DNA of 41,715 nucleotides from Parcubacteria group bacterium (lineage in GTDB: Bacteria; Patescibacteriota; Minisyncoccia; Phycocordibacterales; JABMNX01), in contig JADHUY010000003.1 in the NCBI GenBank assembly GCA_016784305.1, forward strand, positions 1 through 41,715, given 5' to 3'. The notes beneath the pieces are model-generated. The model was not told the origin of the DNA and ran no database searches. It worked only from the letters and a program-made list of their open reading frames with translations. The translations under genes were made by a program, and so were the position numbers. The stretch's first letter is position 1; each line of letters starts with the position of its first letter. Shown in pieces: positions 4,705-33,772 of the stretch.

Positions 4705-4766
4705 ACGAGGATGAGGCTTGTTGGGGCTTTGTAAATACATGCTAGGTGAGTTTTTAATGTGAACTT

Positions 4767-4800
4767 TAATAATTACTCCAGTATACTGGAGTAATTATTA
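4767..4800. promoter_or_regulatory. Operator-like palindrome copy 3 (34-bp perfect)
   Basis: TAATAATTACTCCAGTATACTGGAGTAATTATTA. Confidence 0.85.
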
Positions 4801-4851
4801 GAAGCTTATCTAAATGCTTGTCTAAACTTTTCGTAATTACACCACTACACA

Positions 4852-4879
4852 CCACTACTCCAGTATACTGGAGTAGTGG
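4852..4879. promoter_or_regulatory. Operator-like palindrome copy 4 (28-bp perfect)
   Basis: CCACTACTCCAGTATACTGGAGTAGTGG. Confidence 0.85.
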
Positions 4880-4936
4880 GGAAGTATATGGAAAAGGTTT
4901 ATAGTTTAAGTGTGAAAGGGTATATTAATAACAAAT

Positions 4937-5377
4937 ATGAAAGGGGATGTGAATAACACAAAAGCAGCAGATGATGCATATTGGAAAGAAAAGTTAACTC
5001 CGGAGCAGTATCGTATTTTGAGAGAAAAAGGCACAGAAGAGCCTTTTTCTGGCGAGCTAAATGATAACAAAGAGAAAGGAACTTATATTTGCGCAGCTTG
5101 TGGTGAGCCGCTTTTCTCGTCAGAGGATAAATTTGATTCGGGCACTGGCTGGCCTAGTTTTACAAAGCCGGTAAGCGAAGAGTCTATTGATGAAGAGGAG
5201 GACAATTCACTGCCATTTCAACCAAGAGTAGAGGTTAAATGTAGTAAGTGTGGCGGACACCTTGGACATGTTTTTGATGACCTGCCTGAGCACGCAGGGC
5301 AGGCAGGTGGTTCAAAAGAAGATGGCGGTGCTTGCTATTGTATAAACTCCTGTTCACTTGATTTTAAAGGTAAGTAG
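4937..5377 (+). CDS. msrB: Peptide methionine-R-sulfoxide reductase MsrB
   Basis: [24 protein letters not shown]...[14 protein letters not shown]...YCINSCSL. Confidence 0.93.
5280..5308. repeat. CCTGCCTG/CAGGCAGG palindromic insert inside msrB
   Basis: ACCTGCCTG AGCACGCAGGG CAGGCAGGT; related to the perfect palindrome at 33607-33626. Confidence 0.6.
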
Positions 5378-18236: not shown

Positions 18237-18362
18237 AGGTAAAAGAAAAAGCGCATTCTAAGAATGTGTTTTTTCTTTTAGAACGCAAACCGCTTTGCGT
18301 TCGTGCCTTGGTGCTAGGCGGAGACATGTTTTGATTATCCTTAAAGTCAAAACAGTCGAGCC

Positions 18363-18410
18363 CGGGGAGGAAGTTCTTAACGAGCCTGCGAGTTTAGAAA
18401 CTTGACCCCG
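18363..18410 (+). repeat. tRNA-associated stem-loop element, copy A
   Basis: CGGGGAGGAAGTTCTTAACGAGCCTGCGAGTTTAGAAACTTGACCCCG. Confidence 0.65.
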
Positions 18411-18500
18411 CAAGATAGGGCACTTTTGGTGCCTTCTTTTTATTTTGATGTCGGTCTCGAAAGACGGAATGCCACACCTCTGAGGAGGTGTGGCATGAGT

Positions 18501-18566
18501 CCGGGTAGAAAGTTCTTAGCGAGTTGGAGCACGAAGTGCGAACAAAAGCTTAGAAACTTGACTCCA
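18501..18566 (+). repeat. tRNA-associated stem-loop element, copy B
   Basis: CCGGGTAGAAAGTTCTTAGCGAG...GCTTAGAAACTTGACTCCA. Confidence 0.65.
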
Positions 18567-24233: not shown

Positions 24234-25118
24234 TTATGCAGCACGCAACACTCTTTTTTCACCTTTCATAAGACTGCTTACTTTGGCCATCTCGTATAAT
24301 ATCTCATCGTTGACACTGTCTTTTTTAGTCGTGTGCCATCTATCGGTGTCTTGTTTCTCAGAGAGTATAAGGTCAACCCTTTTTTCAATCGCAGCATATG
24401 ATGAAGCAACTTCCGGTTGATCTTTAGAGGTTGCATATTTATTGAAGACTTCGGCTTGCTTTTTTATCTGCTCAAGCATCATCCTTTGTGCTGGGTGAAT
24501 GTTTAGTTCGGCCAGATTGTCTTTTGTCCATAACACGCTTAGTCTTTCTACTGTAGCTCTATCAGCGCCTACTACAAATTTGGGCATTTTTTGATTGGGA
24601 ATCTGCTCACCTTTGGATGATTGATAATATTTAATATTGGCAAGCTCTCCTTTATCTATATCTTCAAGTATTTTCGATATCTTCATCTTAGAGGTCCCCA
24701 CACCGTACGTTGCGTCAATAGCAATAGCCAATTTTTTGGCTTCTTCTTCTGCTACTCTATCTTCAATTTCAGCGACAATATCTACGCCATTTCTGTAGTC
24801 ATCAAACCTAGAATGTTTTGCGGTTCTGATGCTACTGCCAAACCACCCGTTATCAATTTGTTCTGCCACCATTGCTTCAAGAACAGTCGCTACTTTTTTA
24901 TTATCGTCATCTTCAAATTCTCTATCAGACAGAGCGACATCTTTTTCGTCCTTCTCTATTTCAACTGAAGAGAAGAATTTAGTGAAAGAGGAAATATCTA
25001 TTTCATTTCTCTTTATTACTCTTGTTGCTTTTTCGTAGGCAGTCAGTAAGGCACTAGAAAGAGGTTCGTGAGAAATAATATCTCCGTCTTCATCGTATTG
25101 TGGTTGTTCAAATCCCAT
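24234..25118 (-). CDS. Hypothetical protein, 294 aa
   Basis: Long ORF with SRFDDYRNGVDIVAEIED...LAIAIDATYG; no confident family. Confidence 0.7.
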   Translation of the reverse strand: MGFEQPQYDEDGDIISHEPLSSALLTAYEKATRVIKRNEIDISSFTKFFSSVEIEKDEKDVALSDREFEDDDNKKVATVLEAMVAEQIDNGWFGSSIRTAKHSRFDDYRNGVDIVAEIEDRVAEEEAKKLAIAIDATYGVGTSKMKISKILEDIDKGELANIKYYQSSKGEQIPNQKMPKFVVGADRATVERLSVLWTKDNLAELNIHPAQRMMLEQIKKQAEVFNKYATSKDQPEVASSYAAIEKRVDLILSEKQDTDRWHTTKKDSVNDEILYEMAKVSSLMKGEKRVLRAA

Positions 25119-25152
25119 AGAGATATGCTACTCCAAGGTCTTGATTAGGGCA

Positions 25153-25176
25153 ATGTTGCGGAGGAGGTGAGACTCG
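25153..25176 (-). repeat. Displaced copy of the tRNA-Ser(CGA) 3' end (24 nt identical)
   Basis: atgttgcggaggaggtgagactcg equals 25663-25686; shorter copies at 25222-25235 and 25485-25503. Confidence 0.85.
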
Positions 25177-25502
25177 GTGTGAGCTCGCTAAATTAGTTTG
25201 TACGATATATCGTACAAACTCTTGCGGAGGAGAGGAGTTCCTCAGGCGGCACTGCTGTTTGTCGGTCAGATCAAAGATTTGAACAAACAGGGAGGACTCG
25301 GCGTCAGCTCACTAAACCAAAAACCTTGCGATATATCGCAAGGTTTTTGGTAAGTGGCTCCTGCCCGGACTCGGCGACAAGTCCTCGTTCCACTCGGCTT
25401 GTGTACCGCCTCCGGCTTTCGAGTCCTCTCGTTCATAGAACCACAAAAAGAACCCATTAAGAGTGGGTTCTTTTTGTGCTCCTAGCGGAGGAGGTGAGAC
25501 TC

Positions 25503-25550
25503 GGCGTCAAGTTCTAATTCCGCTACGCTCCATAAGAACTTCCTGCCCGC
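25503..25550 (-). repeat. tRNA-associated stem-loop element, copy C
   Basis: Minus strand GCGGGCAGGAAGTTCTTATGGAGCGTAGCGGAATTAGAACTTGACGCC. Confidence 0.65.
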
Positions 25551-25668
25551 TCCCTCATATCGTACTCGTAACACTCCGTGCGATATATTCGGTCGTTTCG
25601 AGTCCTCACTCCATCCTATTTCATACATACAAAAGTAACCCCTTAATCGGGGTTTCCTTTGTATGTTG

Positions 25669-25752
25669 CGGAGGAGGTGAGACTCGAACTCACAAGCGCT
25701 TGCGCGCGACGCATTTCGAATGCGCTCCGTTACCAATTCCGGGCACTCCTCC
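25669..25752 (-). tRNA. tRNA-Ser(CGA), CCA not encoded
   Basis: Minus strand GGAGGAGTGCCCGGAATTGGTAACGGAGCGCATTCGAAATGCGT...GAGTTCGAGTCTCACCTCCTCCG. Confidence 0.92.
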
Positions 25753-25788
25753 AGGTATTTATAGTGTGTGATATTGGGGGGAATTGTC

Positions 25789-25832
25789 CCGCTTTTTCTA
25801 ATTCACTACGTTCATAAGAACGCTGGACGCGG
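25789..25832 (-). repeat. tRNA-associated stem-loop element, copy E
   Basis: Minus strand CCGCGTCCAGCGTTCTTATGAACGTAGTGAATTAGAAAAAGCGG. Confidence 0.6.
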
Positions 25833-25880
25833 CTCGGCTTACGACCTCCCTGTGAGTCGGTCGGCTTCGCAGCCTGCGCC

Positions 25881-25900
25881 GTTCAATTCCCCGTGGGGTC
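25881..25900 (+). repeat. Perfect inverted 20-nt copy of the tRNA-Glu T-arm/3' acceptor
   Basis: gttcaattccccgtggggtc is the exact reverse complement of 25951-25970 inside tRNA-Glu. Confidence 0.95.
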
Positions 25901-25949
25901 TATTAAATCATAATTACCACACGCATTCGCGTGTGCCTCTTTGATTTCA

Positions 25950-26021
25950 TGACCCCACGGGGAATTGAACCCCGATTTGCAGGATGAAAACCTGCTGTCC
26001 TAACCATTAGACGATGGGGCC
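25950..26021 (-). tRNA. tRNA-Glu(TTC), CCA not encoded
   Basis: Minus strand GGCCCCATCGTCTAATGGTTAGGACAGCAGGTTTTCATCCTGCAAATCGGGGTTCAATTCCCCGTGGGGTCA. Confidence 0.94.
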
Positions 26022-26094
26022 GTGTAATAACGTATGTTATTAATCGGCAGTCTACTTTACACATTTAGCAGGTTTTCAGAAAACCTACCTATTC

Positions 26095-26181
26095 CCTCAT
26101 AAATATCGGGGATTCATTCGCCGGCTCGTGACCGGATGGAAACATTCTGCTCCCATTCCATAACAATTAGCGATGGGGCCG
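26095..26181 (-). pseudogene. Decayed tRNA-Glu-like copy
   Basis: Minus strand CGGCCCCATCGCTAATTGTTATGG...TCCATCCGG...GAATGAATCCCCGATA retains 5'-end and T-arm-like pieces. Confidence 0.5.
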
Positions 26182-26201
26182 TTAAATAGTGCTACCTATC
26201 T

Positions 26202-33553: not shown

Positions 33554-33772
33554 TTATTTTAGTTTTGACCTCCTTAAGAAAGCAGGAACCGCCGTCAGGT
33601 TTCTAACCTGCCTGCCGGCAGGCAGGGCTCGCAAACTCGCTAAGGACCTCCTGGCCGAGCTCATCTGTCGTTCCAAGTATTCACGACATGACTGCGCTTC
33701 ATAAAAGCTAAAAACGATACGCAGGTATCGTTTTCTTAACGCTTTTGTGCCCCATTGGGGCGCAGTTCGCAT
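33554..33772 (-). CDS. Small ORF ending with a second FtsZ-like C-terminal peptide; possibly a relic
   Basis: ...[25 protein letters not shown]; the final 12 aa equal the FtsZ end encoded at 33789. Confidence 0.4.
   Translation of the reverse strand: MRTAPQWGTKALRKRYLRIVFSFYEAQSCREYLERQMSSARRSLASLRALPAGRQVRNLTAVPAFLRRSKLK
33607..33626. repeat. CCTGCCTGCCGGCAGGCAGG perfect palindrome
   Basis: 20-bp perfect palindrome; related sequence inside msrB. Confidence 0.9.

Follow-up and report, generated by a model that had tools for sequence, protein, structure and literature searches.

The window analysed here, 41,715 nucleotides long, is contig C28 of a 563-kb, 34-contig assembly of a Parcubacteria group bacterium, and it contains seven tRNA genes. 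Downstream of tRNA-Glu(UUC), tRNA-Ser(CGA) and tRNA-Phe lie gene-free units of ~200 bp, here called cassettes: one behind tRNA-Glu, two behind tRNA-Phe and at least two behind tRNA-Ser(CGA), where a remnant and an intact outer tRNA end also remain (Table 1). In the genome as a whole, approximately half of the tRNA genes, and the tmRNA gene, are trailed by one to three cassettes of ~180-200 bp each.

Read in the sense of the tRNA, the plan of a cassette is D, a spacer hairpin (often terminator-like), I, a core and then the next D. D is the tRNA 3' half from the T-loop onward, and I is an inverted copy of D. The core, conserved and ~100 nt long, is a three-way junction with the pattern A-GNC-GGA-[P2]-GA-GNC-..GG-[P3]-..; its hairpins P2 and P3 lie within an outer stem, P1, in which I pairs with the next D.

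The first-pass annotation of this window had listed inverted copies of tRNA ends at these loci. That at tRNA-Glu(UUC) is exact, 25881-25900 and 25951-25970 forming a perfect inverted pair over 20 nt, and both pieces listed for tRNA-Phe are found 3' of the gene (CGGTCTCGAA at 18452-18461 and CCTTGGTGCT at 18306-18315). For tRNA-Ser(CGA), TTTCGAGTCCTC does occur at 25417-25428 and 25596-25607, but both copies are imperfect: they read CGAGTCCTCAC against a T-arm of CGAGTCTCAC, i.e., with one extra base.

Two other features neighbour the cassettes. Upstream of the tRNA-Glu gene (26067-26190) there are degenerate pieces of its 5' half, direct (CGATGGGGCCG) and inverted (AGCAGGTTTTCA), which are a relic of tRNA duplication. 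A hypothetical gene occupies 24234-25118, and a protein-based scan of the genome_contigs collection found no relatives of it.

Table 1. Cassette parts in the window, with covariance-model scores where a part was matched.
Feature	Positions	Strand	Score or remark
D of Glu cassette, T-loop to 3' end of tRNA-Glu(UUC) (gene 25950-26021)	25950-25970	-	
Spacer with hairpin (25918-25935), tRNA-Glu to inverted arm	25901-25949	-	
I of Glu cassette: perfect 20-nt inverted T-arm 3' strand and acceptor 3' strand	25881-25900	-	
Glu cassette model match: P1 arms and three-way-junction core	25779-25891	-	47.4 bits, E 3e-9
Short displaced D ending the Glu cassette match: CAATTCCCC	25778-25786	-	
D of Ser(CGA) cassette 1, T-loop to tRNA 3' end (gene 25668-25752)	25664-25689	-	
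Ser cassette 1, terminator-like hairpin	25625-25666	-	
Ser cassette 1, I (25596-25612, imperfect inverted Ser T-arm) and core	25496-25612	-	33.7 bits
D of Ser cassette 2, displaced direct copy of tRNA-Ser 3' half	25481-25503	-	
Ser cassette 2, terminator-like hairpin	25436-25484	-	
Ser cassette 2, I (25417-25428), core and 8-nt D	25293-25427	-	96.7 bits, E 4e-21
Third Ser cassette, decayed remnant: P3-like end ..TTTAGCGAGCTCACACC, palindrome GTACGATATATCGTAC	25177-25252	-	sequence reading, no model match
Outermost intact direct copy of tRNA-Ser 3' end	25153-25176	-	100%
tRNA-Phe 3' hairpin (18240-18280) and second hairpin GAACGCAAACCGCTTTGCGTTC	18240-18303	+	
Phe cassette 1, inverted tRNA 3' end (CCTTGGTGCT) and core	18306-18411	+	27.9 bits, E 5e-4
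Phe cassette 2, terminator-like hairpin	18417-18435	+	
Phe cassette 2, inverted T-arm (CGGTCTCGAA) and core	18452-18565	+	50.2 bits, E 1e-9

Host matching of the cassette arms

The arms are T-arm sequences (GTTCGANTCC) which vary with the host tRNA. I consists at minimum of the T-loop and the 3' strand of the T-stem, and at some loci it takes in the whole acceptor strand and continues further (e.g., ~20 nt at tRNA-Glu in the window, 25 nt at Asp locus L071, 23 nt at Gln locus L076 and 24 nt at Leu locus L173). In a second type of cassette (Phe cassette 1, Arg(UCU) and Glu(CUC)), the CCA-end region replaces the T-arm and there is an extra hairpin (GCAAACYGCTTTGC).

As the first-pass annotation had proposed, we compared tRNA 3' flanks with shuffled sequence. 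The comparison covered the 500-nt 3' flanks of the 34 tRNAs in the assembled genome with sufficient flank, and its controls were the 3' ends of all other tRNAs and 100 dinucleotide shuffles. Copies of the tRNA's own end reached p<=0.01 at 10 of the 34 loci when inverted and at 16 when direct, and because many inverted copies are only 8-10 nt long, the local-alignment score understates them. On the 5' side, the same genome-wide test gave on average no enrichment of own-tRNA copies.

The annotation's claim that the inverted piece tracks its host holds well beyond this window, with enrichment at other tRNA loci and in relatives. Among 53 first-in-array elements, the inverted arm matched its own host over at least 8 nt in 66% of cases and over at least 12 nt in 28%; with tRNAs of other amino acids, the figures were 8% and 1%. 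The direct repeat from T-loop to tRNA 3' end is also present, upstream and downstream D being identical over a median run of 18 nt from position 57, and tmRNA serves as a host as well. One could attribute such matches to chance or to inherent palindromy, as a T-arm is a hairpin in its own right and all T-arms have TTCGA. Swap and shuffle controls refute this, inverted copies of 20-25 nt reach into the acceptor stem, and the pattern recurs both genome-wide and clade-wide, so we consider the probability of this explanation negligible.

Covariation, spread and a probable folded DNA strand

A covariance model, R1, was built from ten copies whose seed alignment was made by MAFFT without structure. 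It found 27 copies at E<0.01 in this genome and matched 47 of 60 genomes across the order; in a sample of the phylum it matched 11 of 146, and matches outside the order were mostly few and weak. In an alignment of 62 copies, which was fitted to the model and so leans to the structure, both sides changed at 25 of 26 pairs and the covariation score was 0.576, versus 0.172 for shuffled alignments and <=0.07 for slid structures; the structure-free ten-copy seed agrees. P1 itself covaries, with 93.6% of its cells paired. Searched against Rfam, the window gave only tRNA at gathering score, and a Leu(TAA) locus (L012) gave nothing meaningful below threshold. A marginal R1 match at 33584-33675 of the window (minus strand, 20 bits, E 0.05) has no tRNA nearby and is probably due to chance.

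An independent scan used only the exact pattern of core bases, with no tRNA input, on 85,488 species. It returned 39 stretches, and every one with a taxon name belongs to the Patescibacteria (Yonathbacteria, Campbellbacteria, Taylorbacteria, Zambryskibacteria, Lloydbacteria, Nomurabacteria and others), a few records being titled only 'bacterium'. A tRNA or tmRNA gene lies upstream on the same strand within 1.2 kb in 33 of the 39, 29 of these within 110 nt (median 67), and none of the 39 has one on the opposite strand within 120 nt. The inverted arm fits the host over at least 6 nt in 29 of the 33.

Ordinary integrative elements could be invoked: if phages or ICEs had repeatedly inserted and been deleted at tRNA 3' ends, att remnants could persist as tandem direct copies of tRNA 3' halves, and class II phages are known to attach at the T-loop. 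However, scars of this kind explain neither the inverted arms nor the conserved covarying core, and a core common to the copies contradicts them; no integrase adjoins the cassettes, and the core pattern had no match in 2.9 million viral contigs. We therefore regard scars as very improbable. The first-pass annotation had reasoned that att-site integration yields only direct repeats, which is right for classical integrases but not for a folded single-stranded site of the integron type, where one direct and one inverted arm result.

Functional RNA helices tolerate G-U pairs far above A-C, and the acceptor and T-stems of tRNAs in this genome and its congener do so (49 G-U versus 4 A-C). The element helices hold 37 G-U versus 36 A-C, a difference from the tRNA stems with a Fisher p of 3e-7 (7e-5 without one position of a special A/C variant), and their changes are Watson-Crick covariation. 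Any bias should lie towards G-U, given that RNA-type scoring went into building the model. Since the elements lack the G-U preference of tRNA stems in the same genomes, the folded molecule is probably single-stranded DNA and not trailer RNA. GNA triloops, which are exceptionally stable in DNA, number 24 on the tRNA-sense strand and none on its complement (in shuffles, a mean of 10.5 and a maximum of 19), and the tRNA-sense strand has the more stable fold in 44 of 45 copies, with DNA and RNA parameters alike. These sequence comparisons suggest that the object of selection is most likely a single DNA strand, folded and of tRNA sense.

The annotation had offered trailer RNA as one of two explanations, i.e., a structure co-transcribed with the tRNA, either to control 3' maturation of that tRNA or to serve as a T-arm decoy. 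This would suit elements which are always downstream and on the tRNA-sense strand, a strand that folds best under RNA parameters too, and a P1 that tracks the T-arm. The helices speak against it, as G-U is not above A-C in them. Many cores also lie beyond terminator-like hairpins, the copies stand in tandem, and the same tRNA differs between congeners in whether it has a cassette, so we find trailer RNA quite improbable. Omega-RNA/HEARO guides and a hammerhead-like ribozyme were considered and dropped; the cassette junction sequences do not fit the latter.

The cassettes are an undescribed, widespread, probably DNA-structured family tied to tRNA T-arms: no description of them turned up in the open-licence literature on CPR integrons, on structured motifs or on cassettes linked to Parcubacteria tRNA genes.

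Filled and empty sites and a proposed exchange of cores

The set of tRNAs with cassettes is not the same in this genome and in its congener (G001). At tRNA-Gly(UCC), our genome has an empty site, with the tRNA followed by the terminator CCCACAAAACCCGCC..GGCGGGTTTTGTGGGTAGTGGGCGAA. The congener's site is filled: its tRNA has a new 3' half, followed by a new terminator, I, a core and the displaced 3' half (CGATTCCCCCTATCCGCAC), and the original terminator is found downstream of the insert. At 45 of 49 loci the acceptor stem is perfectly closed by the 3' half within the tRNA gene, and at 22 of the 49 by the displaced copy, making the displaced piece a relic. The Gly pair and the decay of displaced halves, along with extra proximal cassettes at Cys and Phe relative to the congener, support tandem arrays in which new cassettes arrive at the proximal site.

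I matches the upstream D over a greater length in 18 loci, the downstream D in 2 and both equally in 33, a bias which may partly reflect decay of the displaced downstream D. The tmRNA of this genome has a deviant T-loop, TTCATCA, which is copied in its I arms, and only its outermost displaced copy keeps the canonical TTCGAAC (GGTTCGAACCCC). On both counts, the D and I of a cassette seem to arrive jointly, so the inverted arm and the tRNA end probably travel as a unit. The annotation's other suggestion, a miniature element that captures tRNA ends as terminal inverted repeats, comes close to the data, given the conserved core, tandem arrays, filled and empty congener sites and Patescibacteria-wide spread. 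Its verb may be wrong, however, because I is closer to the tRNA end upstream in its own cassette than to the displaced downstream copy (18 versus 2).

The tmRNA gene itself, at L011:180-620 (contig C3), has the T-loop TTTCATCA, was missed by ARAGORN and is followed by three cassettes.

In the congener, the cores behind Gly, Ser(CGA), Met, Phe and Leu(UAG) are 92-99% identical while the arms are host-specific; Cys shares the P2 hairpin alone, and Gln the P3 hairpin alone. The Met, Phe and Cys spacers look homologous between the congener and our genome, even though the cores in our genome differ. Taken together, near-identical cores between host-specific arms and homologous spacers imply that cores and tips are exchanged in place and that arms stay with their locus. 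Our preferred reading of this exchange is gene conversion between cassettes; alternatively, target sequence may be captured directly at insertion. The near-identical cores behind five tRNAs thus oblige a mobile cassette either to undergo additional core conversion or to have its arms copied from the target.

A rival to mobile cassettes as a whole is hairpin-driven template switching, in which replication forks stall at the terminator hairpin 3' of a tRNA, double back and produce an inverted copy of the tRNA end. Repetition would spread core hairpins and keep arms matched, with no need for a dedicated recombinase, and none was found (see below). It would account for D-hairpin-I often being one unbroken palindrome (L076, L173 and L071), for the independent swapping of P2 and P3 hairpins among the congener's cassettes and for palindromes such as CGATATATCG being dispersed in both genomes. 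It leaves unexplained a core conserved in sequence and structure over many families, the strict position and strand, and the supply upstream of a complete, working tRNA 3' half in place of the former one, which is displaced. We rate template switching as unlikely, though to be taken seriously.

Palindromes around CGATATATCG lie at 25203 and 25329 of the window and at 14 other places, and the congener has 21. They occur in intergenic hairpins and as cassette P3 tips, as if tips were interchangeable modules. Palindromes of the CCTGCCTGCCGGCAGGCAGG type have six exact copies in our genome, with examples at L012 (Leu-TAA cassette 1) and L042 (Met cassette), and some are within P3 tips.

A possible mechanism and its relation to known systems

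We give an even chance to these being non-coding mobile DNA cassettes whose attachment sites are the T-arms of tRNA genes and the tmRNA gene. Our view of how they move, which we infer, is just as evenly balanced. D would be a functional replacement for the tRNA 3' half, with the hairpin often supplying a terminator. Excised single-stranded cassette DNA (D-hairpin-I-core) would fold into a dumbbell in which D and I pair as a short duplex of tRNA T-arm DNA sequence, capped by the hairpin at one end and by the core at the other. A tyrosine-recombinase-type enzyme supplied in trans could recognise the D/I duplex as att and swap a single strand with a tRNA gene at its T-loop, as integron integrase does on folded attC. 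Insertion would then provide a new tRNA 3' half and terminator and push the old ones downstream, giving tRNA-hairpin-I-core-D, precisely the order that is seen, and cores would be homogenised within the genome by recombination as arms remain with their tRNA. Phage Ms6, for which strand exchange in the 7-bp T-loop has been proposed (PMC1762012), offers a precedent for crossover at this point. Against mobile cassettes, I is often far longer than a T-arm recombination site needs, and no circular or excised form was seen.

The search for an enzyme led only to Xer, a further point against mobile cassettes. The sole PF00589 gene of this genome is of the housekeeping Xer type, with the XerA-type NF040815 as its best model above cut-off; the integron integrase model TIGR02249 gives its protein 138.5 bits against a cut-off of 265, i.e., IntI is absent. 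Co-occurrence pointed to no dedicated integrase, finding only the universal Xer, which is equally present in element-free relatives. The extra integrases examined, from six genomes (G002, G005, G031, G053, G057 and G007), have no element next to them, and no autonomous copy was found there; two integrase contigs of G002 (C5 and C6) look foreign, judged from their ORFs. The integron core consensus (R boxes, GTTRRRY at the crossover) is also absent from the cassettes. Reverse transcriptase was rejected as a candidate, since RVT_1 is missing from this genome and from 12 of 15 element-rich genomes and present in 10 of 13 element-free ones.

Another enzyme to consider is a Y1 (REP-associated) transposase, which acts on single-stranded hairpins and could move the core alone as a non-autonomous transposable element. 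The hairpin logic fits, as do the near-identical cores at five of the congener's tRNAs, and Y1_Tnp genes occur in 10 of 15 element-rich versus 4 of 13 element-free genomes. However, that association is not significant (p=0.13), several element-rich genomes are without Y1_Tnp, both Y1 genes of our genome carry different flanking repeats of their own, and REP systems make no copies of tRNA ends. A Y1 mover thus seems to us quite improbable. The two Y1/REP-associated transposase genes in question are at L022:3753-4427 and L039:~780-1450, one flanked by AAAAGGGGTCAGTCACCTTTT repeats and the other by GATGGACGTCGGACGTCCATC palindromes (GGACGTCGGACGTCC occurs seven times in the genome).

Among known systems, integrons offer several likenesses. 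Their attC sites, of ~57-142 nt, pair an inverted and a direct arm in single-stranded DNA to close a variable hairpin structure (PMC2727003). The tRNA cassettes likewise have an inverted and a direct arm that pair, a structural asymmetry favouring one strand and tandem arrays which grow at one proximal site. They are nevertheless not an integron, because they have no IntI, core consensus, attI or ORF. Their landing sites are T-arms of tRNA and tmRNA genes throughout the genome instead of a single attI, their arms match the host tRNA, every cassette carries a tRNA 3' half, and their conserved part is an internal three-way junction instead of R and L boxes.

Class II phages and islands that target tRNA genes (Ms6 type) also duplicate the tRNA 3' half directly from the T-loop and bring its replacement with them, but the cassettes differ in being ~200 bp, without integrase or cargo, in having an inverted arm and a core, and in using many tRNAs per family. 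With REP/BIME sequences and their RAYT transposases they share a dispersed, non-coding, hairpin-forming character and a single-strand DNA logic; REPs have no tie to tRNA ends and no host-matched arms, and this genome's own RAYT genes have other repeats. Finally, the cassettes were found by covariation, like STAXI, for which a DNA-level role has been considered (PMC2864571), and other structured RNA or single-stranded DNA motif candidates, from which they differ in structure and context as well as in having no Rfam match.

Set against these systems, the cassettes look like an undescribed integron-like mobile family that lands on tRNA genes. A stronger claim, which we advance tentatively and consider rather doubtful, is that they are a new class of element: non-coding single-stranded DNA dumbbells with a faithful copy of a tRNA 3' end as their waist, moved by the sole housekeeping Xer or by another enzyme. 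Most tRNA and tmRNA genes of Patescibacteria would then be integron-like platforms, with 3' halves and terminators repeatedly replaced.

Patescibacteria genomes are very small, yet about half of the tRNA genes in this one bear elaborate, structurally conserved cassettes. If the DNA-level reading is true, there is a widespread integron-like system with no obvious integrase; it lands generically on the most conserved piece of every tRNA gene, and in doing so rewrites essential genes in their 3' halves and terminators. This makes DNA exchange in such bacteria, and the origin of single-strand site recombination outside classical integrons, open to test. R1 can meanwhile serve as a marker family for annotation, as these regions otherwise look like empty intergenic DNA.

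One further tRNA locus has an unusual form: an apparent tRNA-Thr(TGT) at L022:4482-5116 (contig C14) contains an intron of ~560 nt with a small HNH-like ORF (4717-5052, minus strand).
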